Shown here piece after piece: positions 50,607 to 64,000 of a stretch of DNA of 64,000 nt (its first letter is position 1; every line of letters starts with the position of its first letter). The stretch spans positions 1 through 64,000 of the forward strand of contig NZ_MWLQ01000018.1 in the NCBI RefSeq assembly GCF_010634855.1, in the 5' to 3' direction. The notes beneath the pieces were generated by a model. It had not been told where the DNA came from. It worked only from the letters and a program-made list of their open reading frames with translations, and ran no database searches. A program made the translations under genes and the position numbers. The stretch comes from Microbacterium sp. B35-30 (GTDB taxonomy: Bacteria; Actinomycetota; Actinomycetes; Actinomycetales; Microbacteriaceae).

Positions 50607-53165
50607 TTACCCCTCGAGGGTGAATCTCACCTCGGTGGTGTTGCCGGCGACGTCGGCGACCACGAGCACGTTCTCGCCGAGCTGTGCGCCAGGCTGCCCG
50701 GGCTGGATGCGATCGATGTCACTCTTCGTTCCGGACGTCTCCTGCACCACTCCGTTGAGCGTCACCGATGCCACGCGGTCGTTATCGCGGATCTTGAAGC
50801 TCACCGCGGTGTACGTGCCGTCGCCGCCGCTCGTGAAGGCTGCGCCGCTCTTGACCTTGACGGTCGGCGCGGTGGCGTCGATCGACAGCGCGAACGAGGT
50901 CGTGGCCGAGACGTTGCCCGCTTCGTCCTTCGCGTAGTACCTCACGGTGTACGCGCCGTCGGCGAGGCCACCGACCGTCGCGGTGTGGGATGCCGCGGTG
51001 TCTCCGTCCAGCGCCGTGCGGGTGCTCTTGATGAGCTTGCCGCCCTTGTAGACATCGGCGACGATCTTCGCGAGTCCGACGTCGTCGGTCGCGTCGACCT
51101 GGATCGACAGCGCGGCGAGAGGTCCGGCGGCCGCCGGGGAGACCAGGACGGCTTCAGGAGCGGCGGTGTCGGGCGCCCACAGCGCGACGAGGTCGACGGA
51201 TGTCGCGCCCGCGGGAATCGTCCATCCCGCAGGCAGCGGATCGCTCGAGCCTGCCAGTGCCCATCCGGCGAAGCGCTCGCCGCTGCGCGACCAGTCTTCG
51301 CCGGCGACGTCCGTGACGGAGGGCAGGCCGAAGCCCTGCGCGGGGGCGTCGATGGTCGCCAACTCATCACCCGAGACAAGCGTCACCCGCACCGGCAGGA
51401 TGTAGGCCGACGTACCCTGCGCCGCCGTGCGGTCCGTGTCCTCGAGCATCCAGCGCGTTGCCGCCGCCGCATCCGTCAGCGTCATCGACACCCCCGAGCC
51501 GGGCCGCCCGTCCAGGACGAGCGAACGGCCGTTGGCCCGGTTCACGAGATGCCCGTCGTAGGCGTTCGCAGCGGTCGTGACGTCGGCCGCGAACGTCCAC
51601 GTCTGGCGCGGGTCGGATGCGTCGCGCTCGATGCCGCGATACGCGACCTCCGTGTCGGAGACGGCGGCCAGCACGCCGCTGCCGTCCGACGCGCTGATGA
51701 CGAAGCCGCCGCCCTCGTACGCGAGCTTCCAGACGCCGCCGCCCCACCGGAACCAGATCACCATGTCGCGCGACGGGTGGTCGGGATCGCCGGCGTAGCG
51801 ATCGATCTGATACTCCGAACCCAGGCTGGCGGTGACGATCCGGAAGATGTCCTGGCCGTAGTCGACGTCCGTCGCCTCCACGCGGGCCGGCTGCGCGGGC
51901 TCTCGGCGGAAGTCGCCGTGGTAGATGTCGGGCCCCGCCACGTCCCATGGCGAGGGCATTGTGACGTCGTCCGGGTAGATCGACGCGAAGAAGGCGTACG
52001 ACATCGGGTCGTATTCCTTCAGCTCCCCGCGCGTGTTGATGGGACTGCGCACGCCATCGTTCCAGTCGGGCTTCTCGGCCATGTTGTCGAACCAGATCGC
52101 CGAAAGCGTCGCGAAGAACTCGTCGCGGTTGGACATCGCGTAGGTGTTCGGCCAGCGACCGGTCGTGTAAGCGTTCTCGTACGCGGCGAAGAAGGCGTCG
52201 GAGAGGGTCGGGTCCGCCTGCTCCTCGATGCCGACCGAGAGCACCGCGTGACCGAATTCGTGCACGAGGATGTTCTCGTTCGGGTACGCCGTGTTCAGGA
52301 ACGCGTTGGCGTCGCCACGCGTGCGCAGCACGTTACGCTCCGAGATCGACGACACGCAGTCGTTCCACATATTCCCGCCGTAGCCCTCAACGTCGTACAT
52401 GGTCGGGTTGTACCCGCCCCGGTGCTCGGGAACGAGGTATGCGTTCTCGCGCGAGCCGTAGACCGCCAGGGAACACCCGTTCGCGGCCATGGTGGCCGCG
52501 ATGCCCGTGCCGGTTTGCGCGAGCTGGGCGTCGACCTGAGCGGCGGCCTTGGTGAGGGTGGCGGCCGCGACGCGGCCCCCCGCCTTGACCTCGATGCCTG
52601 CACCTGTCATCAGCGATTGCGTGTAGTAGTCGAGCTTCGGCACACCCGTGTAGGTCGCCGTCTTGGCCGGCTTGCCGGCGGAATCGGCGATGGCGGCGCC
52701 GTCGATCTCGAGGGTGAGGGGCAGGTTCGGGTCGATCGGGCCGGTGTAGGCGATGCTCGACAGGTGGAGGTCCTCGGGCAGCCGCGCCATGCTGTTGGCG
52801 GCCGTCGCGGCGATCTGCTTGTTGTCCCTGTCGAAGAAGATGGTGTCGGTGCCGCCCTGCGCCGGCTTCGCCTTCAGGGCGATGGTGCGCTCGCCGTTGC
52901 GCAGCGTGATGTTGTCCGGGCTCACCGCCGCGTTCTCGTCGACGTAGCGGTCCCAGTAGATCTCGAGGTACTTCGCCTCGTTGACCACCCGCACCTCGGT
53001 GACCTGGGGCCCGTCGTAGCCCGTGTCGAGCTGCACTGTGCCATCGCCGGCCACGGGCACATCGCCGTCGGCGGCGACGGCGGCGGGGCCGGTCCATGAC
53101 ACCGCCGAGGCGACGACGAGGCCGCCGACGGTCAGGCCGCCGACGAGTGTTCTCCTGCGTTTCAT
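50607..53165 (-). CDS. large secreted zinc metalloprotease, multi-domain
   Basis: An 852-residue exported protein. A signal peptide (MKRRRTLVGGLTVGG... to AVAA, about 32 residues) leads a beta-rich N-terminal domain (fibronectin-like) and then the zincin motif HEFGH at 302-306, with E303 as catalytic base; the third ligand is probably E349 in SNRDEFFATLSAIW, as in anthrax-lethal-factor-like zincins. Further on is a lectin-like segment with tryptophan-rich repeats (about 455-545) and three C-terminal Ig-like repeats (about 640-850). The exact family is uncertain. It likely digests or processes extracellular protein. It follows the hydroxyproline operon on the same strand, separated by a terminator. 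Confidence 0.82.
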   Translation of the reverse strand: MKRRRTLVGGLTVGGLVVASAVSWTGPAAVAADGDVPVAGDGTVQLDTGYDGPQVTEVRVVNEAKYLEIYWDRYVDENAAVSPDNITLRNGERTIALKAKPAQGGTDTIFFDRDNKQIAATAANSMARLPEDLHLSSIAYTGPIDPNLPLTLEIDGAAIADSAGKPAKTATYTGVPKLDYYTQSLMTGAGIEVKAGGRVAAATLTKAAAQVDAQLAQTGTGIAATMAANGCSLAVYGSRENAYLVPEHRGGYNPTMYDVEGYGGNMWNDCVSSISERNVLRTRGDANAFLNTAYPNENILVHEFGHAVLSVGIEEQADPTLSDAFFAAYENAYTTGRWPNTYAMSNRDEFFATLSAIWFDNMAEKPDWNDGVRSPINTRGELKEYDPMSYAFFASIYPDDVTMPSPWDVAGPDIYHGDFRREPAQPARVEATDVDYGQDIFRIVTASLGSEYQIDRYAGDPDHPSRDMVIWFRWGGGVWKLAYEGGGFVISASDGSGVLAAVSDTEVAYRGIERDASDPRQTWTFAADVTTAANAYDGHLVNRANGRSLVLDGRPGSGVSMTLTDAAAATRWMLEDTDRTAAQGTSAYILPVRVTLVSGDELATIDAPAQGFGLPSVTDVAGEDWSRSGERFAGWALAGSSDPLPAGWTIPAGATSVDLVALWAPDTAAPEAVLVSPAAAGPLAALSIQVDATDDVGLAKIVADVYKGGKLIKSTRTALDGDTAASHTATVGGLADGAYTVRYYAKDEAGNVSATTSFALSIDATAPTVKVKSGAAFTSGGDGTYTAVSFKIRDNDRVASVTLNGVVQETSGTKSDIDRIQPGQPGAQLGENVLVVADVAGNTTEVRFTLEG

Positions 53166-53380: not shown

Positions 53381-54841
53381 TCATGCTGCGATCAGCACGC
53401 CGTCGATCCGCCGGGGGATCCCGAGGGGGTTGGATGCCTGCAGAGCCGGCGGCAGTAGGGCATCGGGCATATTCTGATAGGTCACCGGGCGCAGGAATCG
53501 CGTGATCGCCGCACTGCCTACTGACGTGGTGCCTACGGCCGTCGTCGCGGGGTAGGGTCCGCCGTGCTGCTGCGCCCAGGTCACCGAGACGCCGGTGGGC
53601 CATTGGTTCCACAGCACCCGTCCCGCTTTGGTCGACAGCACCGGCACGAGCTCGGCGGCGACCGCGTCGCCCTCGGACCCGAAGACCGTCGCGGTCAGCT
53701 GGCCATCGAGGACCTCCGCGACGGCGACTATCTCGGACTCGTCCTCGTAGGTGGCGACGAGAGCCGCCGGGCCGAACATCTCGGAGATGAGCGACTCGTG
53801 GTCGGCGCGCAGGGCTGCTGCGGTGGTTTTCAACAGAACCGGCGCCGGATCGCCGTCCGCATGCCGTGAGCCCGAAAGCACCTCGACGGCGTGGTGGCAT
53901 GCCGTCGCCTCGACCGCACCGCGGAAGCCCTCGGCGATCCCGTCGTTGAGCAGCGGCGCCGGTGCGGGCAGCGACGCCAACGCGAGCATCGCATCCAGGC
54001 CCGAGTCGGCGGGGACGAGCAGGACGCCCGGCTTCGTGCACAGCTGGCCGGAGCTGCCGGTGACCGAGGCGACGAAGCCCTGCACGATCTCATCGCCCCG
54101 CTCGGCCGCGGCCGACCGCGTGACGAACGCCGGGTTCACGCTGCCGAGCTCGCCGTAGAAGGGGATGGGCTGGGGCCGGGACGAGGCGATGTCGAAGAGC
54201 GCGCGGCCGCCGGCGATCGATCCGGTGAACGCGGCCGCCTGCATCAGCGGGTCCTTGAGCGCCTGCACCCCGGCCTGCGTGCCGTACACGGTGTCGAACA
54301 GACCGCGTGGTGCCCCGACTGCGGCCAGCGCGTCGCGCACCACCTGCGTCGTCAGCGCGGAGAGCTGCGGGTGCCCGCGGTGGGCCTTCACGACGACCGC
54401 GTTGCCCGCGGCCAGCGCGCTCGCGGAGTCGCCGCCCGCCACCGAGAAGGCGAACGGAAAGTTGCTCGCGGAGAACACGAGCACGGGTCCGATCGGCTCG
54501 AGCTGGCGGCGCAGGTCGGGGCGGGGCGCGCCCATCGGCCACTCGCCGTCCGCCCGGTCGATGCGGGCGTCGAGCCAGGTGCCCTCCTCGAGCACGTCGC
54601 CGAACAGCCGCAGCTGGAAGCTGGTGCGGCGCACCTCGCCGCGCAGGCGCGCCTCGGCGAGATGCGTCTCGCGCCGGGCTTCGGCGATGAGCTCGTCGGC
54701 GTGGGCGTCGAGCGCGTCCGCGACGGCGCCGAGCGCACGGACGCGTTCGCCGATCGTGCTGCGCCGCCAGATCGCGGATGCCGCGGCCGCGCGTCGCACG
54801 ATCGCGGAGACGTCCTCGGGCGTGGATGCGGGGATGGTCAT
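53381..54841 (-). CDS. aldehyde dehydrogenase, 2-oxoglutarate semialdehyde type
   Basis: A 486-residue NADP-type aldehyde dehydrogenase. The catalytic cysteine is C268 in SSGQLCTKPG and the general base E231 in GELGSVNPAF; the ASNFPFAFSVAGGDSASALAAGN stretch is typical of ketoglutarate-semialdehyde dehydrogenase (KGSADH) as found in hydroxyproline and sugar acid catabolism. It completes conversion of hydroxyproline to 2-oxoglutarate. It is the last gene of the operon, three bases after the flavoprotein stop, and followed by a terminator. Other dehydrogenase specificities cannot be excluded from sequence alone. Confidence 0.88.
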   Translation of the reverse strand: MTIPASTPEDVSAIVRRAAAASAIWRRSTIGERVRALGAVADALDAHADELIAEARRETHLAEARLRGEVRRTSFQLRLFGDVLEEGTWLDARIDRADGEWPMGAPRPDLRRQLEPIGPVLVFSASNFPFAFSVAGGDSASALAAGNAVVVKAHRGHPQLSALTTQVVRDALAAVGAPRGLFDTVYGTQAGVQALKDPLMQAAAFTGSIAGGRALFDIASSRPQPIPFYGELGSVNPAFVTRSAAAERGDEIVQGFVASVTGSSGQLCTKPGVLLVPADSGLDAMLALASLPAPAPLLNDGIAEGFRGAVEATACHHAVEVLSGSRHADGDPAPVLLKTTAAALRADHESLISEMFGPAALVATYEDESEIVAVAEVLDGQLTATVFGSEGDAVAAELVPVLSTKAGRVLWNQWPTGVSVTWAQQHGGPYPATTAVGTTSVGSAAITRFLRPVTYQNMPDALLPPALQASNPLGIPRRIDGVLIAA

Positions 54842-54844
54842 CGG

Positions 54845-56308
54845 TCAGTCCTTTCCGTCGGCGAGCGCTGCGAGGTCGGCGACCTTCACCGGGGTCGCCA
54901 GTGGCCGTTTTGCGAGCGGCTCGAGGTCTGCGGGGCCGGCCGGCCGCCCGGTCTGGGCCGACACCAGGCACGAGAGCGCGAACCCGCAGACGCGGCCCTG
55001 GCACAGGCCCATGCCCGGGCGCGCCGTGACCCGGACGTCGCGCGGGTCGTCGGCGCCGAGCCCGTGAACGGTGACGGCCACCGCACCCGCGTCGACCTCT
55101 TCGCATCGGCAGACCGTCGTGTCCGCCGCGAGCCATGTCGTCCATTCGGCGGGCACGGGAGAGGCCTGGTGCATGCCGACCGCGAACCGGCGGCCCCGGG
55201 CGATGCGGCGACGCAGCCGCGCGCGCCGGCGCGGGTCGTCGGCGCGGCCGGCGTCGACCGCGGCGGTGAGCGCGGCGAGCTCGCCTTCGGCACACGACTG
55301 CACCGCGCCGCCGATGCCGGTCACTTCGCCGGCGAGGTAGACCCCGTGGACGCTCGCGCGCTGGTCGGCGTCGGCGACTGCGACGAGAGAGTCGTCGACG
55401 TCGACGCGCGTCTTCGCGCCCACGCCGATCGCGAGCTCGAGCTGCGGCGTGAAGCCCCAGCCGAGCGCGACCAGGTCGGCCTCGACGGTGCGCTCGGTGC
55501 CGGGCTGGATCCGGCCGCGGGCGTCGACGCCGGCCAGCGTCACGCGTGAGACGCGCCCCTCGCCCGAGACCGCCGCGACGATGGTGCGGGTGCGCAGCGC
55601 GATGCGGTGCTTCAAGAACGCGGCGGCATAGCCGATGCCCTCGAGCAGCTTGCCGGGCTCCTGGATCGCCCGCAGCGGCGTGGCGGCCCAGCGCGACAGC
55701 GCGTTCGCATCGCACACGGCGACCACCTCGACGCCGGCGTCGGCCAGCCCCGCGGCGACCGAGAGGAGGAACGGCCCGGTGCCGGCGACGACGGCGCGCC
55801 GTCCCGCCGCCACCTGGTTCGCCTTGAGGAGCGCCTGCACGCCGCCCGCGGCCATCACTCCTGGGGTCGTCCACCCGGGAAGGGGGAGCTGGCGGTCGTA
55901 CGCGCCCGTGGCGAGCACCACCCGCTCGGCTCGGACGGCCGGCTCGCCGGCATCCGTCGCGTCCTCGTCGGATGTGAACGTCGTGCGCAGGACCAGCAGC
56001 GTCTCATCGCGGTCGATGCGCCACACGTGCCGCCCCGCGACGTGGACGAGCCGCCCGCCCTCGACCGCACGCCGCAGCCGGGCGCGAAGATCGCGGTACT
56101 GAGACCAGTGGTGGTGCCCGGTCGATTCGTGGCGTTCGAATGCGTCGAGGTGCTGTTCGTCGGGGTGCCGCCAGTACTGGCCGCCGCTCTGCTGCCCGGC
56201 GTCGACGAGCGCGACCGCCAGGCCGCGTTCGGCCGCCGCGACGGCGGCAGACAGGCCCGCAGGCCCCGCACCGATCACTGCGAGCTCGTAGACGGATGCC
56301 TCAACCAC
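54845..56308 (-). CDS. FAD/NAD(P)-binding oxidoreductase subunit with [2Fe-2S] BFD-like site (D-hydroxyproline dehydrogenase)
   Basis: A 487-residue flavoprotein of the OoxA/HcnB type. The FAD motif is VIGAGPAGLSAA (about 11-22) and the second nucleotide motif VVAGTGPFLLSVAAG. C-terminally, C400, C402, C436 and C441 form a BFD-like iron-sulfur site (CRCEE...CQGRVC). In hydroxyproline degraders it is the large subunit of D-hydroxyproline dehydrogenase with a small ferredoxin-like subunit and a DAO-like subunit, both encoded immediately upstream. The start is GTG at 56308 after GGAGGG, overlapping the preceding gene by eight bases. Confidence 0.87.
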   Translation of the reverse strand: MVEASVYELAVIGAGPAGLSAAVAAAERGLAVALVDAGQQSGGQYWRHPDEQHLDAFERHESTGHHHWSQYRDLRARLRRAVEGGRLVHVAGRHVWRIDRDETLLVLRTTFTSDEDATDAGEPAVRAERVVLATGAYDRQLPLPGWTTPGVMAAGGVQALLKANQVAAGRRAVVAGTGPFLLSVAAGLADAGVEVVAVCDANALSRWAATPLRAIQEPGKLLEGIGYAAAFLKHRIALRTRTIVAAVSGEGRVSRVTLAGVDARGRIQPGTERTVEADLVALGWGFTPQLELAIGVGAKTRVDVDDSLVAVADADQRASVHGVYLAGEVTGIGGAVQSCAEGELAALTAAVDAGRADDPRRRARLRRRIARGRRFAVGMHQASPVPAEWTTWLAADTTVCRCEEVDAGAVAVTVHGLGADDPRDVRVTARPGMGLCQGRVCGFALSCLVSAQTGRPAGPADLEPLAKRPLATPVKVADLAALADGKD

Positions 56309-56606
56309 CGTGCCCTCCCGCCATCGGCAGCGCCTCGTGCGGGTCGTCGCTGCGCACGACCTGCCCGTCGCGTGCGGGTGTGACACAGGCCCGCCGCGCC
56401 CGGGCGCCGTCGACGGTGAGGATGCAGTCATAGCAGACGCCGATGCCGCAGAACAGCCCGCGCGGCTCGCCGGTCACGCGGGTCGTGCGCCACGCGGAGA
56501 CCCCCGCCGCCGCGAGCGCGGCGCCGATCGTCTGACCCTCGCGGAAGGCGATGCTCCGCCCGTCGAACGTGAGCTCGCCGGTGCGGTCCGGCTTCGGAGC
56601 GTTCAT
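56301..56606 (-). CDS. small [2Fe-2S] ferredoxin-like subunit of D-hydroxyproline dehydrogenase
   Basis: A 101-residue protein with the cysteines C53, C58, C61 and C74 in GLFCGIGVCYDC...C, matching the small iron-sulfur subunit (HcnA/OoxX type) of multi-subunit amino-acid dehydrogenases. It starts with an ATG that overlaps the stop of the DAO-like gene and ends overlapping the flavoprotein gene. It passes electrons between the two flavin subunits. No other function fits the context. Confidence 0.85.
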   Translation of the reverse strand: MNAPKPDRTGELTFDGRSIAFREGQTIGAALAAAGVSAWRTTRVTGEPRGLFCGIGVCYDCILTVDGARARRACVTPARDGQVVRSDDPHEALPMAGGHGG

Positions 56607-57772
56607 GCGGCAGGCCTTTCGTCGAACCGATGCGGCCGGAACGGCTCCAGGGAGAGGTCGGTGGGCTCGCCCCGCAGGGATTGCACGAGGAGCTTCGCGG
56701 TGCCGACCGACAAGCCGATGCCCGCGCCCTCGTGGCCGGCGGCGTGCCAGAGCCCCGGCATCCTTCCGTCCTCCCCGATGACGGGGAGATGGTCCGGGCA
56801 GTACGGGCGGAACCCGGAATAGGTGCGCATGATCTGGACGCCGGCGAGCACGGGGAACAGTTCGATCCCGGCGCGCGCGATGCGGCCGACCGCCTCGGAC
56901 GAGAACGTGGTGTCGAACCCCACCCGCTCGCGGCTGGCGCCCATGAGGATCGTGCCGCTCGGCGTGCCCTCGACGACCGACGACACCTGGAGTCCGGCGT
57001 CCGAGCTCGCCACGTTCTCGACGTACTCCGCCGAGTAGACCTTGTGACGGACGGTCGGGGGCAGCGGCTCCGAGACGAGGACGAATCCGCGGCGGGGGAG
57101 CACGGGGAGTGTGACGCCCGCGAGGGCGGCGACCTCGCCGCTCCACGGGCCGGCGCAGACGATCACGGCGCCCGCGTCGATGCGTCCGGCGGTGGTGTCG
57201 ACTCCGGTGGCGCGGCCGCTCGTCACGTGGATCGCGTGGACAGCGGTGCGGGTCAGCAGCCGGGCCCCGCGGTCGCGGGCGAGGCGCAGCAGGTGGTGCG
57301 CCGCGAGCACGGGCTGCACCTGGGCGTCGTCGGGGTAGAACGCGCCGCCCGCCATCGCGGGGTTCAGGTACGGCTCGATCTCGCGCAGTGCCCCCGCATC
57401 GCCGACGTCGTCGACACGGATGCCGAGTCCGCGCTGGTGCGCCACGAGCGCGCCCAGGGCGCGCTTGCCGCGGTCCGTCGCCGACACGACCAGTCCGCCC
57501 TTCGCCTCGAACTCCCAGTCCGCGGCGTGCTCGGCCAGCTCGCCGCGCCAGAGCGTCTGCGAGTAGAGCGACAGCTCGAGCTCGGGCCCGACCTCCTTGT
57601 CGGAGACGAGGAGGTTCCCCTCGCACCTGCTGGTGGTGCCGGACGCGATCGAGCCGCGCTCGACGACCGTTACCGACAGGCCCGCCGACGAGGCGAAGTA
57701 CGCGACGGCCGCGCCGAGGATCCCCGCTCCGATGATCACGACGTCCGAGCGGGGTGCTGCGGCCGCGCTCAT
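56603..57772 (-). CDS. DAO-family FAD oxidoreductase, catalytic subunit of D-hydroxyproline dehydrogenase
   Basis: A 389-residue D-amino-acid-oxidase-fold protein. The FAD motif is VVIIGAGILGAAVAYFASSAG (about residues 11-31), and the C-terminal FRPYCPDHLPVIGEDGRMPGLWHAAGHEGAGIGLSVGTA is typical of the DAO/glycine oxidase family. It should oxidise cis-4-hydroxy-D-proline to 1-pyrroline-4-hydroxy-2-carboxylate. Neighbours encode the epimerase that forms the D-isomer and the deaminase that uses the product. Overlaps of four bases tie it to the GntR gene and to the ferredoxin subunit. Confidence 0.87.
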   Translation of the reverse strand: MSAAAAPRSDVVIIGAGILGAAVAYFASSAGLSVTVVERGSIASGTTSRCEGNLLVSDKEVGPELELSLYSQTLWRGELAEHAADWEFEAKGGLVVSATDRGKRALGALVAHQRGLGIRVDDVGDAGALREIEPYLNPAMAGGAFYPDDAQVQPVLAAHHLLRLARDRGARLLTRTAVHAIHVTSGRATGVDTTAGRIDAGAVIVCAGPWSGEVAALAGVTLPVLPRRGFVLVSEPLPPTVRHKVYSAEYVENVASSDAGLQVSSVVEGTPSGTILMGASRERVGFDTTFSSEAVGRIARAGIELFPVLAGVQIMRTYSGFRPYCPDHLPVIGEDGRMPGLWHAAGHEGAGIGLSVGTAKLLVQSLRGEPTDLSLEPFRPHRFDERPAA

Positions 57773-58479
57773 GCGGGGCGGGGGATGCCCGCGGGAGGGG
57801 ACCCGGCGGCGGAGTAATCGGACCAGTCGGTCAGGACGTGCTCGATGTGGGCATGGACCAGCTCGCGCGCGAGTGCCGCGTCGCCGGCCTCGATCGCGTC
57901 GAGCATGAGATCGTGCTCGCGCGCGGACGAGGTCAGCCGGCCTTGCTCGGCGAGCGCCGAGAGGCCGAACAACCTGGTCTGCGAGCGCAGCGAGGCCACG
58001 AGCTCGGTCAGGCGCGAGTTGCCTGCGTACTGCAGCAGGGCCAGGTGGAAGTCGCTGTCCGCGGTGAGATACCCGATGAGGTCGCCGGTCTCGGCGCCCT
58101 CGATGATCGCCGCGGCCTGCCGCCGGAGACCGGGGAGCGCTTCGGCGGGGACATGCGGGGTCGCGCGCTCGATCGCGGGCGGCTCGAGCAGAAGACGCAG
58201 CTCGGTCACCTCGAGGAGGTCCTGCGGCGACACCTCGGTCACCTGGAATCCGCGGTTGGGCAGCGCGATGACCAGCCCTTCGCGGACGAGGTCGAGCATC
58301 GCCTCGCGGATCGGCGTCGCCGACACGCCGAACTGCTCACCGAGGCTCGGGGCCGAGTACACACGACCGGGCTGCATCTCACCGCTGATGATCGCCGAGC
58401 GCAGCGCCCGCGTGACGGTGTCGCGGATGCTCGGCTGCTTGCTCAGGCGCACGACGCTGCGCAGCTCGGGACCGGTCAT
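57769..58479 (-). CDS. GntR/FCD family regulator
   Basis: A 236-residue GntR regulator. The winged helix is IRDTVTRALRSAIISGEMQPGRVYSAPSLGEQFGVSATPIREAMLDLVREGLV, and the C-terminal FCD domain includes the metal-binding ligands D/H pattern (DFHLALL, EHDLML, HIEHVL). FCD regulators sense carboxylic or amino acids, so hydroxyproline or a pathway intermediate is the obvious ligand. It is encoded inside the operon it probably controls, overlapping both neighbours. The likely binding sequence is the motif near 61425. Confidence 0.87.
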   Translation of the reverse strand: MTGPELRSVVRLSKQPSIRDTVTRALRSAIISGEMQPGRVYSAPSLGEQFGVSATPIREAMLDLVREGLVIALPNRGFQVTEVSPQDLLEVTELRLLLEPPAIERATPHVPAEALPGLRRQAAAIIEGAETGDLIGYLTADSDFHLALLQYAGNSRLTELVASLRSQTRLFGLSALAEQGRLTSSAREHDLMLDAIEAGDAALARELVHAHIEHVLTDWSDYSAAGSPPAGIPRPA

Positions 58480-59477
58480 CTGTGGGCCTCCTCGGACGCG
58501 GACGGCTCGTCCGTTCGCGTGGACTCCATGATCCTCTCCACGACGGCCAGGTCTTCCCACGCCATGCCGACCCCGGTGTACACTGCCGGCGCGCCGGGAC
58601 GGCGGACGAACTCACCGCGGATCAGCTCGGCGAGGTTCGCGATCGGCTGGGTGCCGCCCGCCCATTCCTCGTCCGTGCGCGCGGCGGCGAGATTGCCGTT
58701 CTCACGCAACGCCGACGCGCGCGCCTCGACCACGAGGTCGGCCGCCCGCACCAGTCGCTCGCCGAGTTCGCGGTGATCGCGCCCGTGCGACCCGATCGCC
58801 GCGACCACGGCGTCCGGGCGTACGTCGTCGAGGTCGAGCAGGGGTCTCGGCGACGAGGTGGCGGTAACCACGACGTCCGCCGCAGCCACGTCGTCGCGCG
58901 AGCCGGCGTCCGCCGCGATGCCGGCGGCGCGCAGTGCGGCGACGGCGGAGTCGACGCGGCCGGGCGTCCGCCCGATCACGCTCACCCGCCCGGCCGGCAG
59001 TAGGTCGGCGAGGGTCAGGATGTGCTCGACCGCCTGAGGCCCAGACCCTACGACGGCGAGGTGGTCGATCGAGGTCCGGGGGCCGGCGGGATCGGCGGTC
59101 AGCAGCCCGCAGACCGCCACAGCCGTCACCGCGGGCGTGCGCAGCGTCGTCAGGCGCGCGCCGTCGAGGACCGCGCGGGGCTCGAGCGTCTCCCGGTCGA
59201 ACAGGAGGTACCACGCGTGGATCTTCGGCAGGCCGAGCCGCGTGTTGCCCGGGGCGATCGTGGCCACCTTGATTCCCGCGGAAGACGCGGACTCCGCCGG
59301 CATCAGCAGGAACTCGCCGCCCGCGAGCGGGGCGAACAGGCGGTCGTGGGCGTTCTCGACATCCCACCCGGCCCGCAGCGTGGCCGTGATCGCCTCGACC
59401 GCGTCCCTGCGTGAGAGGGCAGCGTCGATGTCGGTCGCGCTCACGACCGGGATGCCGACAGTGGAGGAGAGGCTCAC
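58476..59477 (-). CDS. ornithine cyclodeaminase/mu-crystallin family protein
   Basis: A 333-residue OCD-family protein with the NAD-binding LAVVGSGPQAVEHILTLADLL (about residue 120) and the family motif KIHAWYLLFDRETLEPRAVLDGARLTTLRTPAVTAVAV. In hydroxyproline loci, OCD-like proteins act as 1-pyrroline-2-carboxylate reductases (LhpI), used in trans-3-hydroxyproline breakdown, or as ketimine reductases. Its presence suggests the operon may handle more than one hydroxyproline isomer, or recycles a by-product. Start is GTG overlapping the epimerase stop (GTGA). Confidence 0.86.
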   Translation of the reverse strand: MSLSSTVGIPVVSATDIDAALSRRDAVEAITATLRAGWDVENAHDRLFAPLAGGEFLLMPAESASSAGIKVATIAPGNTRLGLPKIHAWYLLFDRETLEPRAVLDGARLTTLRTPAVTAVAVCGLLTADPAGPRTSIDHLAVVGSGPQAVEHILTLADLLPAGRVSVIGRTPGRVDSAVAALRAAGIAADAGSRDDVAAADVVVTATSSPRPLLDLDDVRPDAVVAAIGSHGRDHRELGERLVRAADLVVEARASALRENGNLAAARTDEEWAGGTQPIANLAELIRGEFVRRPGAPAVYTGVGMAWEDLAVVERIMESTRTDEPSASEEAHR

Positions 59478-60475
59478 AGCACGAACCCCCGCGGGAACGG
59501 ATCGGACGGATCGAGCATGTATTGCGCCGTACCCGTGACCCAGGCGCGGCCTGTGATCGTCGGGATCACGGCCGGGGTGCCGGCGACCCAGGTCTCTTCG
59601 ACGAGTCGGCCGGTGAAGGCGGTGCCGATGTAGGACTCGTTCACGAAGTCGGTGCCGAGCGGCAGCAGGCCCCGTGCGTGCAGCTGGGCCATGCGCGCAC
59701 TCGTCCCGGTCCCGCAGGGGGAGCGGTCGAACCACCCCGGGTGGATCGCCATGGCGTGGCGCGAGTGGCGGGCGGTGGAGCCCGGCGCCTCGAGGTACAC
59801 GTGGTGGCAGCCGTGGATCGTGGGATCGACCGGGTGCCTCGGCTCATCCACCTCGTCGATCGCGGCCATGATGGCCAGTCCCGCCGCGAGGAGGTCGTCC
59901 TTGCGCGAACGCTCGAAGGGCAGGCCGAGGCTGTCGAGCGACACGATGGCGTAGAAGTTGCCGCCGAATGCGAGGTCGTACGACACCGCGCCGTAGCCGG
60001 GGACGTCGACCGACCGATCGAGCCCGACCACGAACGAGGGCACGTTGCGGATCGTGACGCTCTCGGCATGCCCCTCGGCGACGGCGACGTCGGCGATCAC
60101 GAGGCCTGCCGGCGTGTCGAGGCGGATCGTCGTCACCGGCTCGACGACCGGCACCATCCCGGTCTCGACCAGCACGGTCGCGACGCCGATGGTGCCGTGC
60201 CCGCACATGGGGAGGCAGCCCGACACCTCGATGTACAGCACGCCGAAGTCCGCGTCAGGACGCGTAGGCGGCTGCAGGATCGCGCCGCTCATCGCGCTGT
60301 GCCCGCGAGGCTCGTTCATCAGGAGAGTACGCACGTCGTCGCTGTTCGCCATGAACCACTGGCGACGCTCCTCCATCGTCGCTCCCGGGAGCACACCCAT
60401 CCCGCCCACGATGACGCGGGTGGGCATGCCCTCGGTGTGGGAGTCGACGGCGTGGAAAACGCGCTGCGATCGCAT
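59474..60475 (-). CDS. 4-hydroxyproline epimerase (proline racemase family)
   Basis: A 333-residue ProR-family enzyme. Two catalytic cysteines are present: C91 in PMCGHGTIG and C254 in SPCGTGTSA. Having both bases distinguishes racemase/epimerases from the 3-hydroxyproline dehydratases, which have threonine at the second site. It converts trans-4-hydroxy-L-proline into cis-4-hydroxy-D-proline, the first step of the pathway encoded by the operon. The ATG follows GAGGACCCGA. Specificity for 4-hydroxyproline over proline is inferred from its neighbours. Confidence 0.9.
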   Translation of the reverse strand: MRSQRVFHAVDSHTEGMPTRVIVGGMGVLPGATMEERRQWFMANSDDVRTLLMNEPRGHSAMSGAILQPPTRPDADFGVLYIEVSGCLPMCGHGTIGVATVLVETGMVPVVEPVTTIRLDTPAGLVIADVAVAEGHAESVTIRNVPSFVVGLDRSVDVPGYGAVSYDLAFGGNFYAIVSLDSLGLPFERSRKDDLLAAGLAIMAAIDEVDEPRHPVDPTIHGCHHVYLEAPGSTARHSRHAMAIHPGWFDRSPCGTGTSARMAQLHARGLLPLGTDFVNESYIGTAFTGRLVEETWVAGTPAVIPTITGRAWVTGTAQYMLDPSDPFPRGFVL

Positions 60476-60488
60476 TCGGGTCCTCGGA

Positions 60489-61397
60489 TCAGCGGTAGCC
60501 CTTGGCCAGGACGGCCTCGGTGTCGGAGATGATACGCGCGCGCACGTCGTCGGGGAGCGGCAGGCGCGGCGGGCGCGTGGTGATGCCTGCTGGGGCGACA
60601 CCGGCGACCTCCTGCGAGAGCTTGATCGCCTGGACGAACCAGGTCTTCGAGTCCCAGCGCAGCAGCGCGTGGAGGTCGCGGTAGATGTCGCGAGCCTTGA
60701 CCCAGTCGGTCGGGTCGTCGGAGGTCGACAGGTTGTACAGCTCCACAGTCGACGCGGGAATCGCGTTCGGGTAGCCGGCGACCCAGCCGACGGCTCCGTT
60801 GATACCGAGTTCGAGTACGACGTCGTCGGAGCCGATCGAGATGTCGAGGCCCGGAGCGAGCTCGCGGATCTCGAACGCGTGGCGCACGTCGCCCGAGAAC
60901 TCCTTCACGGAGACGATCAGGCCTTCCTGGTACAGGCGCGCCAGCAGATCCGGTCGCAGGTCGACCTTGGTGTCGATGGGGTTGTTGTAGGCCAGCACCG
61001 GCAGGCCCACGGCGGCGACGCGGCGGAAGTGGTCGACGACCTCGTCGTCGCTCGCACGGTACGCGTTGGGTGGAAGCAGCATGACGGCGGGGGCGCCGTG
61101 CTCGGCCGCGTGCTCGGTCAGGCGCACGCTCTCGAGCGCGCCGTAGGCGCCGACGCCGGGGATGACGGCGGTTCCCGTAGGAGCAGCGTCCAGGGCGGTG
61201 AGGTAGACCTGTCGGCGCTCATCCTCGGTGAGCGTCTGGTACTCGCCGAGCGACCCGTTGGGGATGATCCCCGTGACGCCGTTCGATGTCGTGAAGCGCA
61301 CGTGCTCGGCGTACGCGTCGTAGTTCACCGAGAAGTCGGGATTGATGGGGAGGGTCGTGGCGAGGTTCACACCGTGCCAGGGCTTGCGGTCGGTCAT
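60489..61397 (-). CDS. dihydrodipicolinate synthase-like deaminase (1-pyrroline-4-hydroxy-2-carboxylate deaminase)
   Basis: A 302-residue TIM-barrel lyase. The Schiff-base lysine is K165 in SVKEFSGD and the tyrosine Y137 in VLAYNNP; GSLGEYQTLTEDERR is the family signature. In this setting it is most likely the deaminase that turns 1-pyrroline-4-hydroxy-2-carboxylate into 2-oxoglutarate semialdehyde, not lysine biosynthesis DapA. It is the first gene of the hydroxyproline operon, 13 bases before the epimerase and 57 bases after the GH127 stop, with a shared motif in that gap. Confidence 0.88.
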   Translation of the reverse strand: MTDRKPWHGVNLATTLPINPDFSVNYDAYAEHVRFTTSNGVTGIIPNGSLGEYQTLTEDERRQVYLTALDAAPTGTAVIPGVGAYGALESVRLTEHAAEHGAPAVMLLPPNAYRASDDEVVDHFRRVAAVGLPVLAYNNPIDTKVDLRPDLLARLYQEGLIVSVKEFSGDVRHAFEIRELAPGLDISIGSDDVVLELGINGAVGWVAGYPNAIPASTVELYNLSTSDDPTDWVKARDIYRDLHALLRWDSKTWFVQAIKLSQEVAGVAPAGITTRPPRLPLPDDVRARIISDTEAVLAKGYR

Positions 61398-61418
61398 CGT
61401 GTCTCCAGTGTCGAAAGG

Positions 61419-61438
61419 TGCAATTGCAATGGTAATGG
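61419..61438 (-). promoter_or_regulatory. palindromic motif upstream of the hydroxyproline operon
   Basis: The perfect palindrome TGCAATTGCA is at 61419-61428, overlapping the minus-strand CCATTACCATTGCA (61438 to 61425). The latter is nearly identical to the element before the metalloprotease gene. TACCAT inside it may be a minus-10 with TAGACG about 17 bases upstream; transcription would then start in the palindrome. It is a good candidate for the GntR/FCD site. Confidence 0.5.
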
Positions 61439-61454
61439 GGCGGACGGGTTCCGT

Positions 61455-64000
61455 CTAGGTCCGCGGCCGCCCGGGCAGGACGAGCCTGCGACGCGGCTCC
61501 TCGTTGCCGGCGCGGTCGGTCGCTGCGTACTCGATGATCTGCTCGTCGTCGGTGAGTGCGCGCACGAACGCCTCCTGGAAGGTCGCCCAGAAGGTCCCCG
61601 GCCCCTGCCACTGGATGCGTTCGGCACCTGAGACGTCGTCGCGCGCGACGAAGGTGATCTCGACGCCGGCGCCCAAGGGCTTCACGCGTGCCTCGGTCAC
61701 CGGAGGAGTCGTGTCGATGTGGAGCGTGCGTGCTGCGAATCCGGTGAGTCCCGAAGCGGTGGCCCGCGCCTCGATGCGCACCGAGCCCTCGATCCCGACC
61801 CGCAGCACGTCGGTGTACACCTGCCAGTCGTCCTCTCCGACGCGCACTTCGACGGACTCGACCTCGTGCTCCCCGCACGTCGCACGCACGCGGATCTGCG
61901 GCGGTGTCGTATGCCAGCCGGACGCGGCCGGCTCGGGTGCGAGGATCTCGACGAGGGGGACGGATGCCGCGTACTCGACGTCCGCGGTCTGCTCGAGCCA
62001 CTCCTCGGCCGGCCCGACGTCGGGTGCGTCTTCCCACGCTCCCCGGAGGCTCGCCGCATCGAGCTCCAGTGCGCGACGGAGCACCGTGCGCGCCTCGCCG
62101 AGGCTCAGCAGGGAGTCGGCGTGCCCGAGCTGCACCGCACCCAGCACGCGGGCGACGAATGCGCTTCGCGTGCAGGGGAGGGGGTCGGTCCAGAGATCGT
62201 CAAGGATCGTGGCGCCGTCCTCACGTCGGCGCGCGGCGACGCCGGTGTCGACGCCCGCGAAGCCGATCGTGGCGTCCGCCGATCGCACGTACAGGTGGTA
62301 CCGGTGGTCGGTCCCCGTCCACACGGGCGCGAAGGGCAGGCCGTCGACGCGCACGGCGCCTTCCGAGAGCAGCGTCGTCCGCGGATCCGCGTCGTCGCCG
62401 ATGAGGGTGCCGTCGAGCAGCCGCCGACGATCGAGGGCGATCTCGAGCCACGTCGTGCTGTCGGACCGGGCCGCCAGGACGCTCGGGCCGAAGGCGACGT
62501 GACGCACCTGCGGATCGTCGGGCGTCGCGTGGGCTCGCAGGCTCATCGGCAGTTCGAGGACCAGCTCTTCGCCGGGCGTCCAGTCGCGGTGCACGTCCGC
62601 ATACTGCCCTGGCCGCACGTCCAGCGCCACAGGCTCGGCGCCGATCCGGGCGGACGCCGGCGCGCCGACCCATCCGGGGACGCGCACGTGCAGAGTCAGC
62701 GGCACCGGGTCGGGGCATCCGTCGGTCCGCTCCACCCGTATGCGCACCTGCGAGCCGAGCGGAAGCTCGGATTCGAGGACGATGCGTAACCCTCGTTCGC
62801 GCCACGTGAGTTCGGCGGGCGTGTGCGGATTGATCCACAGCTCGGCGTCGGTGCCGACCCCGCGGAAGAACACGGAGTCCTGGTACTTGACGTGGTTCTC
62901 GAGGCCGGTCCCGCCGCAGCACGTTCCGACGTTGTCGAACTCGGGGAGGGCGCCCGGGTGCACCGGGAACATGTAGGTGACCTCGGGGCTCGTCTCGGAG
63001 CGGACGTCCCGCCGGGAACCGAGGATGTGGTTGAGCGCGCCGCGCTCGTAGTACTCCATGTACTTCGCGTCGAGCGTGTGCTGGAACAGCAGTCGCGAGA
63101 GCTTCAGCAGGTTGTAGGTCGCGCATGTCTCGGCGTTGCGGTGCCCGATGTCGCCGGCGACTCGGCCGGCCGGCCCCCACAGCTCGCTCTCCCCGGTGCC
63201 GCCGTGCGCGTACATGCGCCCCGGCACCACCTGGTCCCACAGCCCGGCGGCGGCGTCGAGATACGCGCGCTCGCCGGTGGCCTCGTACTCGTGAACGTAG
63301 CCGATGAGCTGTGGCAGGTGCTGATTGGCGTGCATGCCGTCGAGGATGTCGCGGCGTGACGCTCCTGCGGCGACGAGCTCGTGCTGATCGAACATCCTCG
63401 CGGTCTCGAGGAAGAGCGGCTCGTCGGCGACAGCCGCGAGCCGCGTCATCGTCTCGTTCATGCCGCCGAACTCACCGGCGATGTAGAGGGACCACATGTG
63501 TTGGCGCCGGGCGTCGTCCAGCCGCGAGAGACGGCCGTGGACCCAGCGCCCCATCGCCCTCGCCACGGCGAGCGCCTGCTCGCTGCCGACCAGCTCGTGC
63601 GCGTCGAGGAGGCCGGCCATGATCTTGTGGCAGGTGTAGTACGGTGCCCAGATCTCGCCGTAAGGGGCGCCGTCCTCGAGCCGGGAGAACTGCCACTCGC
63701 CGTAGGCGGCGAGGAACCCCGGGTGGGAGTAGCGGCCCGTCGCCGCGAGGACCGACTGCACCTCGGCGAGACCCGCGACGAACTCCTCGGTCTTGGCGTG
63801 GAGCACCGGGTCGCCTTCGCCTGCGGCGGCCATCGCGAGCATCGACAGGAAATGCCCGGCGTAGTGGCCGCGAAGCAGGTTGGCCGTCTGGGCGGCCTCG
63901 CGGCCGGGGTAGTCGTGCTCGCTCCACGCGTCTTCGGCGGGGTGCCCGAAGTCCTCCCACGAGCCCGGCGGCACGGCGCCGCGGGTGTCGAGCCCGGAAT
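61455..64000 (-). CDS. GH127/GH146-type beta-L-arabinofuranosidase, 5' end outside the window
   Basis: At least 848 residues are visible; the gene continues beyond the right edge, since the frame is open to base 64000. The DUF1680/GH127 barrel is recognised by LLRGHYAGHFLSMLA, NAETCATYNLLKLSRLLF and CCGGTGLENHVKYQDS. E (63129-63131) and C (63123-63125) in AETC, with the double cysteine (62916-62921), reproduce the HypBA1 zinc/nucleophile site (E338, C340, C417, C418). Accessory beta domains and an OmpL47-like repeat (DRAGNEEPRRR) end the protein. HypBA1 releases L-arabinose from hydroxyproline-linked beta-arabinofuranosides, which fits the hydroxyproline operon downstream. Secretion cannot be judged without the N terminus. 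Confidence 0.88.
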   Translation of the reverse strand, partial: SGLDTRGAVPPGSWEDFGHPAEDAWSEHDYPGREAAQTANLLRGHYAGHFLSMLAMAAAGEGDPVLHAKTEEFVAGLAEVQSVLAATGRYSHPGFLAAYGEWQFSRLEDGAPYGEIWAPYYTCHKIMAGLLDAHELVGSEQALAVARAMGRWVHGRLSRLDDARRQHMWSLYIAGEFGGMNETMTRLAAVADEPLFLETARMFDQHELVAAGASRRDILDGMHANQHLPQLIGYVHEYEATGERAYLDAAAGLWDQVVPGRMYAHGGTGESELWGPAGRVAGDIGHRNAETCATYNLLKLSRLLFQHTLDAKYMEYYERGALNHILGSRRDVRSETSPEVTYMFPVHPGALPEFDNVGTCCGGTGLENHVKYQDSVFFRGVGTDAELWINPHTPAELTWRERGLRIVLESELPLGSQVRIRVERTDGCPDPVPLTLHVRVPGWVGAPASARIGAEPVALDVRPGQYADVHRDWTPGEELVLELPMSLRAHATPDDPQVRHVAFGPSVLAARSDSTTWLEIALDRRRLLDGTLIGDDADPRTTLLSEGAVRVDGLPFAPVWTGTDHRYHLYVRSADATIGFAGVDTGVAARRREDGATILDDLWTDPLPCTRSAFVARVLGAVQLGHADSLLSLGEARTVLRRALELDAASLRGAWEDAPDVGPAEEWLEQTADVEYAASVPLVEILAPEPAASGWHTTPPQIRVRATCGEHEVESVEVRVGEDDWQVYTDVLRVGIEGSVRIEARATASGLTGFAARTLHIDTTPPVTEARVKPLGAGVEITFVARDDVSGAERIQWQGPGTFWATFQEAFVRALTDDEQIIEYAATDRAGNEEPRRRLVLPGRPRT

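Follow-up and report, generated by a model that had tools for sequence, protein, structure and literature searches.

In Microbacterium sp. B35-30, a run of 16 minus-strand genes (contig positions 72271 to 53381) appears to constitute a utilization system for arabinosylated hydroxyproline (Hyp) peptides of plant cell wall glycoproteins, in which the peptides would be imported, stripped of arabinose inside the cell and cut, and the Hyp oxidized. The run encodes an Opp-type peptide ABC transporter, an S33 iminopeptidase-like hydrolase, aminopeptidase P, a GH146-like probable beta-L-arabinofuranosidase without a recognizable export signal, and eight genes for a probable Hyp-catabolic pathway. Much the same set, in different arrangements, recurs in many actinobacteria. 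The substrates, the transport of intact glycopeptides and the regulation of the locus are inferred from gene content, order and recurrence.

Gene content of the Microbacterium locus

The analysis began with a window of 64,000 nucleotides (positions 1 to 64,000 of contig NZ_MWLQ01000018.1), for which an initial annotation had proposed that a GH127-type gene and the adjacent Hyp genes serve one substrate, glycosylated Hyp peptide, and that no dedicated Hyp importer was visible. All of the genes that it listed were confirmed on the minus strand (Table 1), but two corrections were needed. First, the window ends inside the glycosidase gene, whose GTG start lies 154 bases beyond it, and the importer and two peptidase-type genes follow directly upstream. 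Second, the glycosidase is nearer to GH146 than to GH127. Within the run, 10 of the 15 joints are 4-base overlaps, while a 57-base gap separates the glycosidase gene from the first Hyp gene.

Table 1. Coordinates of the genes and operator-like sites in and around the locus, in contig positions
Position	Strand	Feature
50607-53165	-	Protein with a signal-like N terminus, an HEFGH motif and an Ig-like C terminus; homologs follow the Hyp genes in two core loci (L049, L044); possible extracellular protease, weakly supported
53381-54841	-	Aldehyde dehydrogenase, probable 2-oxoglutarate semialdehyde dehydrogenase
54845-56308	-	Second flavoprotein subunit (Pyr_redox_2) of the probable D-hydroxyproline dehydrogenase
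56301-56606	-	2Fe-2S subunit (Fer2_4) of the same dehydrogenase
56603-57772	-	FAD protein related to glycine oxidase/D-amino acid dehydrogenase, probable subunit of D-hydroxyproline dehydrogenase
57769-58479	-	GntR/FCD regulator, HypR-like by family and context
58476-59477	-	OCD/mu-crystallin family, probable pyrroline-2-carboxylate reductase; no match in three Microbacterium core loci (L044, L046, L053)
59474-60475	-	Two-cysteine proline racemase family protein, probable 4-hydroxyproline 2-epimerase
60489-61397	-	DHDPS-like protein, probable pyrroline-4-hydroxy-2-carboxylate deaminase
61418-61428		Operator-like site GTGCAATTGCA in the gap between glycosidase and deaminase genes
61455-64154	-	GH146-like (PF07944) beta-L-arabinofuranosidase by family, 899 aa (61455-64000 within the window)
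64151-65596	-	Aminopeptidase P
65593-66876	-	S33 iminopeptidase-like hydrolase
66873-72271	-	Opp-type peptide ABC transporter (five genes)
72337-72353		Longer related operator-like site TGCAGTTGTACATTGCA before the transporter genes
73580-78720		Neighboring GH127 plus sugar-ABC cluster

The glycosidase matched the PF07944 catalytic domain over residues 17-426 with 258 bits against a cut-off of 24.9. Its best PDB sequence matches were the GH146 entries 5opj (E 1.4e-56) and 8k7y (2.9e-41), compared to 2.6e-10 for the best other entry, 5mqo. Fold comparison, for which we used the 81% identical M. hibisci ortholog, gave Z scores of 33.2-28.3 for GH146 entries and 26.2 or less for GH127 entries. 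Residues E324, E342, C344, C412 and C413 were invariant in 27 homologs and aligned with 5opj and 8k7y, consistent with an intact Zn-binding Cys3-Glu site, nucleophile Cys and acid/base Glu as described for the family (PMC10850190). The GH146 enzymes XeHypBA1 and Bll4HypBA1 act on Araf-beta-Hyp (PMC10850190). However, the solved GH146 enzymes nearest to this protein are BT0349, which acts on arabinan-derived oligosaccharides, and Bll3HypBA1, which is beta-1,3-specific and nearly inactive on Araf-Hyp (PMC10850190), so family membership does not fix the substrate.

The epimerase contains the CGHG and SPCGTG cysteines and matched PF05544 with 428 bits; its best NCBIfam model was 4-hydroxyproline epimerase at 352.9 bits (cut-off 376), followed by proline racemase at 350.7, so there was no formal equivalog match. 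The three dehydrogenase subunits occur in the order given for SCO6289-6291 (PMC6608401), although no equivalog cut-off was reached. The DHDPS-like protein and the aldehyde dehydrogenase matched PF00701 and PF00171, likewise without reaching an equivalog cut-off.

The transporter consists of an SBP_bac_5 protein, two BPD permeases with OppC_N and two oligo_HPY ATPases, and it reached no listed substrate-specific NCBIfam cut-off. Aminopeptidase P (M24B) contains AMP_N and Peptidase_M24 domains (58.6 and 146.3 bits, over cut-offs) and aligned to aminopeptidase P structures, but did not reach the NCBIfam equivalog cut-off (180.7 against 465). The S33 protein scored far below the curated prolyl aminopeptidase equivalog model (30.5 bits against 259.75), and its nearest solved proteins were 8jgm and 8jgn, the latter named AT3g61540 (E 3e-88). 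We refer to it only as iminopeptidase-like.

Recurrence of the locus and its operator-like sites

We examined 80 relatives in public genomes. Of these, 53 lie in such a locus (hereafter core loci; labels such as L044 denote individual loci), and in 43 of the 53 all eight transporter-to-glycosidase genes occur in the order SBP-perm-perm-ATP-ATP-PIP-APP-GH146. In contrast, a peptidase or Hyp-catabolic gene lies within 10 kb in 0 of the 27 other relatives. No export signal was seen in 52 of 52 core enzymes for which a start was chosen, while 25 of the 27 others carry twin-arginine (Tat) signals. This check used a simple script that picked the start giving the most hydrophobic N terminus and, for core loci only, barred starts inside the gene before; L079 had no start chosen. 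Some core N termini are mildly hydrophobic (L061, L063), but none has a twin-arginine motif with a hydrophobic stretch. The two sets split at one branch of a quick tree with SH-aLRT support alone, from which L079 was left out because its translated segment had 5 residues; the GH127 outgroup sits on a very long branch, and we use only the unrooted split.

A proline racemase family gene was found in all 48 core genomes that could be searched, and the Hyp-catabolic set was linked to the glycosidase cluster in 40 of the 48, in at least six arrangements. Two core loci outside that search, L039 and L049, have the epimerase in the locus. Linkage was not seen in the remaining eight, some of which lie on short contigs. 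In different lineages the Hyp set lies downstream, upstream co-directional, upstream divergent or on the opposite strand, which makes inheritance as one block less likely as the sole reason for adjacency. Outside the Microbacterium type, the Hyp proteins are only about 37-61% identical to those of the window, and the epimerase about 69-75%. These results support the single-substrate interpretation of the initial annotation, with GH127 corrected to GH146-like (clan GH-P).

Within the genus, 12 of 12 genomes with the glycosidase ortholog have the epimerase, compared to 16 of 137 without it (Fisher p 1.9e-10, not corrected for kinship). However, the Hyp set also stands without the system: 16 of 28 genus genomes with the epimerase lack the glycosidase ortholog, and in all 4 of those 16 that were retrieved no aminopeptidase P, iminopeptidase-like or glycosidase match lies near, although one, L160, has a distant peptide-type transporter. 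In a class-wide sample, all 5 loci with a close (57-72% identical) co-directional transporter next to aminopeptidase P begin with a GH127 instead of a GH146. Of 10 further aminopeptidase P loci in this sample, 5 have no GH127/146: L145, L154 and L153 (peptidases plus GH36), and L148 and L150, which have a distant (31-49%) transporter on the other strand.

Operator-like sites precede both halves in many loci, and some resemble the published HypR site. One contains GTGACATTGTA, the exact reverse complement of the HypR site TACAATGTCAC (PMC6608401). Some relatives add further sugar genes, as expected for extensin (Ser-alpha-Gal, Hyp-beta-Ara). A GH36 alpha-galactosidase is present in 6 of 53 core loci, a minority, and may have another role. 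The araDBA genes lie beside the core in L036 and L051, accompanied in L051 by aldose epimerase, galT and galK. A Promicromonospora neighbor matched Peptidase_M6, but below its cut-off.

A proposed pathway and alternative readings

We consider it likely that the locus is a self-contained utilization system for arabinosylated Hyp peptides from plant hydroxyproline-rich glycoproteins, extensins above all, although this rests on genomic evidence without activity, growth or transcript data. In this model, proteases and perhaps secreted arabinosidases cut the glycoprotein to short glycopeptides outside the cell, and the Opp-type transporter imports them still carrying arabinose. The cytoplasmic GH146-like enzyme then removes the beta-L-arabinofuranose bound to Hyp, aminopeptidase P cuts Xaa-Hyp bonds, and the iminopeptidase-like enzyme removes N-terminal Hyp/Pro. 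Free Hyp would pass through epimerase, dehydrogenase, deaminase and semialdehyde dehydrogenase to 2-oxoglutarate, and arabinose through araBAD, with a HypR-like GntR controlling both halves through related operators.

It is possible, though less likely, that the real substrate is free Hyp-arabinosides, arabinosylated small peptides or solanaceous lectin fragments rather than extensin. Only imported molecules can reach an enzyme without a recognizable export signal, and solanaceous lectins carry the same Ser-Hyp4 arabinosylation (PMC6085000). On the other hand, the Opp-type transporter and two peptidase-type genes point to peptides, and the GH36 found in some lineages fits the Ser-alpha-Gal of extensin (PMC4908140).

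General scavenging of proline/hydroxyproline peptides, for example from collagen or gelatin, with the glycosidase as an incidental passenger, appears unlikely. The transporter, both peptidase-type enzymes and the Hyp pathway would also serve collagen peptides, Streptomyces coelicolor HypR controls Hyp genes together with a putative collagenase (PMC6608401), and half of the further aminopeptidase P loci lack GH127/146. However, the glycosidase keeps its place in 43 of 53 core loci, a GH127 stands in for it in the 5 class-sample loci, araDBA and GH36 join it in some lineages, and beta-L-arabinofuranose does not occur in collagen. Similarly doubtful is the possibility that the glycosidase acts on another glycan (arabinan tails, rhamnogalacturonan II, arabinogalactan) and is placed beside the Hyp genes by coordinated life on plant walls: although BT0349 and Bll3HypBA1 act on arabinan or AGP arabinosides (PMC10850190) and the neighboring GH127 plus sugar-ABC cluster probably serves arabinosides, the gene is embedded in the peptide operon in many bacterial families, it lacks an export signal, and the sugar-type cluster goes with the Tat-exported paralog in some loci (L103, L104, L110). 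More speculatively, the system might import and dismantle arabinosylated plant peptide hormones of the CLAVATA3/CLE and related kinds, so that actinobacteria living with plants could remove host signals as well as feed on wall protein, but we regard this as improbable.

Relation to known systems

The component families are known, but in the open-licence literature searched, which excluded preprints, we found no description of the assembled system: nothing that we saw joins a GH127/146 arabinosidase gene with Hyp-catabolism or proline-peptidase genes, and a search combining Xaa-Pro aminopeptidase, hydroxyproline and arabinofuranosidase returned no paper. The Bifidobacterium longum HypAA-HypBA2-HypBA1 system, with Bll4HypBA1 (GH43, GH121, GH127, GH146), uses clan GH-P cysteine beta-L-arabinofuranosidases to remove Hyp-linked beta-arabinan, and a GH127 plus sugar ABC transporter lies 1.3 kb from the present operon. 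However, B. longum takes up the freed arabinobiose (PMC6085000), whereas here a peptide transporter, peptidases and Hyp oxidation are joined to the glycosidase, and no GH121 or GH43 is among the 16 genes. In the Xanthomonas euvesicatoria XeHypBA1/XeHypBA2/XeHypAA system, XeHypBA1, counted as GH146 (PMC10850190), prefers Araf-beta-Hyp (PMC6085000); it is described as extracellular, without Hyp catabolism or peptide transport in the text examined. Latescibacteria were proposed to use GH127 on extensin (PMC4454575), again without Hyp catabolism in the text examined.

The S. coelicolor HypR regulon (SCO6289-SCO6294 and others) contains the same kinds of Hyp genes and a related operator, and the Streptomyces core loci share its order FAD-FeS-FAD-DHDPS-epimerase-GntR. 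Deletion of the epimerase gene abolished growth on L-Hyp there, but the regulon table examined holds a collagenase and no arabinosidase or peptide-transport operon (PMC6608401). A neighborhood network of the proline racemase family reports peptidase, ABC transport and OCD families near some members in Bacilli (PMC4113996), but the terms "glycosid" and "arabino" do not occur in its main text. The Pseudomonas aeruginosa Lhp and Sinorhizobium meliloti Hyp clusters follow the same pathway logic to 2-oxoglutarate (PMC6608401).

The bacterial extensin work that we saw concerns removal of its sugars. The locus examined here would be a complete route for sugar, peptide and hydroxyproline together, with the unusual plan of bringing the glycopeptide in before deglycosylating it. 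It proposes testable functions for a GH146 subfamily, an Opp transporter and a peptidase pair that recur through many actinobacterial families, and it predicts a regulon.

Gene content of the run within and beyond the window

The initial annotation had placed a GH127-type gene 57 bases upstream of eight tightly coupled Hyp genes, and all of these genes were found where it put them. The joints between them are tight: the epimerase/OCD, OCD/GntR, GntR/FAD and FAD/2Fe-2S pairs overlap by 4 bases and the 2Fe-2S/second flavoprotein pair by 8 bases, while gaps of 13, 3 and 57 bases separate deaminase/epimerase, flavoprotein/aldehyde dehydrogenase and glycosidase/deaminase, respectively. Searches against Pfam and NCBIfam supported the families, namely PF00701, PF05544 (428 bits), PF02423, GntR plus FCD, an FAD protein like glycine oxidase/D-amino acid dehydrogenase, Fer2_4, Pyr_redox_2 and PF00171. 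However, no NCBIfam equivalog cut-off was reached, so the exact substrates are inferred from the set.

The initial annotation also stated that no dedicated hydroxyproline importer was visible in the unit. We examined the contig (C9, of a 4.56 Mb genome) beyond the end of the window. Upstream of the glycosidase, on the same strand, lie genes for aminopeptidase P, an S33 iminopeptidase-like hydrolase and an oligopeptide-type ABC transporter, joined by 4-base overlaps and one 2-base gap. Thus, the run has 16 genes, and the importer is simply outside the window. A class-V aminotransferase-fold gene lies divergent from the transporter genes and recurs near the core in nine other loci, two of which belong to one genome. 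Further on are a true GH127 gene, with best PDB matches to 4qjy, 6ex6, 5mqo and HypBA1, a sugar-type ABC transporter, and araD, araB and araA. This GH127-plus-sugar-transporter cluster is separate and recurs in eight other loci (L024, L026, L029, L103, L104, L110, L155 and L156), in these loci near a relative of the GH146-like enzyme outside the peptide system, and represents a possible arabinoside-import route parallel to the peptide route.

Features located in and around the run and in related loci
Location	Feature	Orientation	Remarks
Window 50607-53165	HEFGH-containing, apparently secreted protein		No Pfam catalytic match; homologues in L049, L044 and L112
Window 61488-61661	OmpL47/Ig-like domain ending the glycosidase		Residues 832-889; 41.9 bits, cut-off 40; more conserved than the stretch before it
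C9:64151-65596	Aminopeptidase P	Same strand as glycosidase	Outside the window
C9:65593-66876	S33 iminopeptidase-like hydrolase	Same strand as glycosidase	Outside the window
C9:66873-67733	Oligopeptide-type ATPase	Same strand as glycosidase	Outside the window
C9:67730-68605	Oligopeptide-type ATPase	Same strand as glycosidase	Outside the window
C9:68602-69600	Permease	Same strand as glycosidase	Outside the window
C9:69597-70571	Permease	Same strand as glycosidase	Outside the window
C9:70574-72271	Peptide-binding protein	Same strand as glycosidase	Outside the window
C9:72432-73568	Class-V aminotransferase-fold gene	Divergent from the transporter genes	Outside the window; also near the core in L012 and L049 (one genome), L019, L040, L050, L053, L068, L074 and L143
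C9:73580-75523	GH127 (HypBA1-like)		Cluster with the next entry spans 73580-78720
C9:75520-78720	Sugar-type ABC transporter
C9:83731-87767	araD, araB, araA
C5:151076-152326 (L001, L006)	Third PF07944 glycosidase in the genome		Best match of the family search, 335.4 bits
L051:16258-17406	Amidohydrolase-family gene, possible dipeptidase	Downstream of the glycosidase
L057:7235-8428	Amidohydrolase-family gene, possible dipeptidase	Downstream of the glycosidase
L061:12916-14118	Amidohydrolase-family gene, possible dipeptidase	Downstream of the glycosidase

Family and predicted location of the glycosidase

The glycosidase contains PF07944 and the GH127 middle domain. In contrast to its initial assignment as GH127-type, it was nearest to GH146 both by sequence and by predicted fold. 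For the latter analysis, we used an AlphaFold model (mean pLDDT 82.2, pTM 0.85) of the 81% identical orthologue found on a 607,494-base contig of Microbacterium hibisci. This model matched GH146 entries at Z 33.2-28.3 and GH127 entries at 26.2 or less, and Foldseek also ranked GH146 entries first. Residues E324, E342, C344, C412 and C413 align with the GH146 entries and are invariant in 27 homologues. Two GH146 enzymes, XeHypBA1 and Bll4HypBA1, were previously reported to act on Araf-beta-Hyp, while Bll3HypBA1 itself hardly does (PMC10850190).

To assess whether the enzyme is likely to be exported, we checked N termini by script across 80 related loci, of which 53 were core loci (defined in the next section). 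Of the 53 core enzymes, 52 had a start chosen, and none of these showed a twin-arginine or clear hydrophobic signal. Of the 27 others, 25 carried a twin-arginine signal, and the remaining two (L106 and L111) showed none with the starts available. In a tree of 52 core loci plus the window against the 27 others, the two sets fell on two sides of one branch (SH-aLRT 100).

Recurrence and linkage to Hyp catabolism

To determine whether this arrangement recurs, we scanned 84,980 species genomes with an alignment of ten orthologues, which found 122 relatives, and the best 80 loci were kept. A neighbour search indicated that 53 of the 80 are core loci, 52 with aminopeptidase P and/or the iminopeptidase-like gene, plus one (L061) with Hyp genes only. 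Of the 53, 43 have all eight genes from binding protein to glycosidase in one order and strand. In contrast, 0 of the 27 others had a match to either peptidase or to six Hyp enzymes, although the core definition uses the peptidases, so that this zero is informative mainly for the Hyp genes. Core loci occur in Microbacterium, Pseudoclavibacter, Leucobacter, Glycomyces, Promicromonospora, Brachybacterium, Nesterenkonia, Streptomyces, Kineosporia, Kineococcus, Actinoplanes, Catenuloplanes, Symbioplanes, Actinosynnema and a Ruaniaceae genome. Several loci are cut by contig ends. In Leucobacter and Nesterenkonia loci, amidohydrolase-family genes lie downstream of the glycosidase, the one in Nesterenkonia alba being placed by sequence similarity only.

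We next tested for linkage to Hyp catabolism with a PF05544 search. Of the core genomes searched, 48 of 48 had a match, whereas 1 of 14 control genomes passed the cut-off. Linkage was seen in 40 of the 48, including three (L064, L077 and L081) that are split by contig ends with part of the core next to Hyp genes. It was not seen in L036 (190 kb away), L041, L043, L051, L057, L072, L073 and L076. The Hyp set was found downstream in the Microbacterium order; downstream in another order (Glycomyces); upstream divergent (Promicromonospora); upstream co-directional with the semialdehyde dehydrogenase and then GntR (Kineosporia, Catenuloplanes, Symbioplanes, Actinosynnema, Kineococcus); the same without the dehydrogenase (Streptomyces); upstream with GntR first (Ruaniaceae and one Microbacterium genome, G013); and on the opposite strand downstream (Brachybacterium). 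Outside the Microbacterium type, the Hyp proteins are about 37-61% identical to those of the window, and the epimerase about 69-75%.

Within the genus, 22 of 149 genomes had a glycosidase match at 1e-60. Twelve of these have the orthologue (60% identity or more; two fragments at 71% and 46% in one genome, G102), and 10 have only the 47-49% paralogue or weaker. All 12 had an epimerase match at 1e-50, as compared to 16 of the other 137 (Fisher p 1.9e-10, not corrected for kinship). In all four of those 16 that were examined (L157-L160), Hyp genes were present without an aminopeptidase P, iminopeptidase-like or glycosidase match within the 20 kb examined, although L160 also has a distant peptide-type transporter.

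In a class-wide sample of 345 genomes, aminopeptidase P matched at 1e-140 in 9 (11 matches), and we examined the 10 matches outside the window's genome. Five (L146, L147, L149, L151 and L152) have a close co-directional transporter, and each has a GH127 (41-43% to that of the window's genome) ahead of the binding protein. Of these, L147 and L149 also have the whole Hyp set, L151 has only GntR, L152 has a deaminase-like gene and a nearby GH36, and L146 has no Hyp gene and no iminopeptidase-like match. Among the other five, L153 has both peptidases and GH36, L145 has aminopeptidase P and GntR, L154 has aminopeptidase P (and a 29% ATPase match), and L148 and L150 have aminopeptidase P with a distant (31-49%) transporter on the other strand. 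The glycosidase matched at 1e-150 in 4 of 345 genomes: the window's genome, G112 (the paralogue), and G214 and G307, where it lies beside a GH127 plus sugar-transport cluster with no peptidases. Because the first pass scored only a few candidates per genome, misses are possible in this sample.

Operator-like sites and substrate clues

We then searched for operator-like sites. In Microbacterium, TGCARTTGYACATTGCA with up to 2 mismatches was found in 19 of 22 loci examined (M. yannicii counted twice). In 18 of these it lies within 200 bases of the transporter gene match and in L053 it lies 1.5 kb upstream, while L014, L020 and L090 lack it. The reversed pattern gave 0 in the same loci, and the pattern gave 0 in 24 non-core loci. 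In the glycosidase-deaminase gap, GT[AG]CAATTGCA occurs in 18 of 19 loci, not in L053, although no control was run for this short site. In the window's genome the long site occurs exactly once, before the transporter. However, at up to 3 mismatches there were 7 places against 6 for the reversed control, so only the exact match means much.

In loci of the upstream co-directional types, TGTGACATANTACTG with at most one mismatch was found 16 times in 10 loci, as compared to 0 for the reversed control and 0 of 24 non-core loci. In 6 of the 10 loci (three Streptomyces, Catenuloplanes, Symbioplanes and Kineococcus) it stands both before the first Hyp gene, 2 bases from its likely start codon, and before the transporter, while the other four show one copy. 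Some of the conservation of the operator-like sites may be promoter sequence. One copy (Kineococcus) contains GTGACATTGTA, the reverse complement of the published HypR site TACAATGTCAC (PMC6608401).

The neighbouring genes provided further clues to the substrate. A GH36 alpha-galactosidase gene lies in 6 of 53 core loci, between aminopeptidase P and glycosidase in L043 and L051, and divergent from the transporter in the four Glycomyces loci (L042, L072, L073 and L076). Extensin carries single alpha-galactose on serine (PMC4908140). Beside the core in M. arabinogalactanolyticum (L036) come GntR and araD-araB-araA, and in Leucobacter sp. wl10 (L051) the order on one strand is iminopeptidase-like, aminopeptidase P, GH36, GH146, LacI, araD, araB, araA, aldose epimerase, galT, galK and amidohydrolase. 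In neither of these two genomes was the Hyp set seen next to the core. Arabinose, galactose and Hyp peptide are the parts of extensin.

The component families are known, but the assembled, import-first system was not described in the literature that we examined. Although activity has not been shown, one substrate for both parts of the locus is well supported by recurrence, different arrangements, replacement of GH146 by GH127, and paired operator-like sites. CLAVATA3-like signalling peptides also carry arabinose (PMC5897480), so they remain possible substrates.
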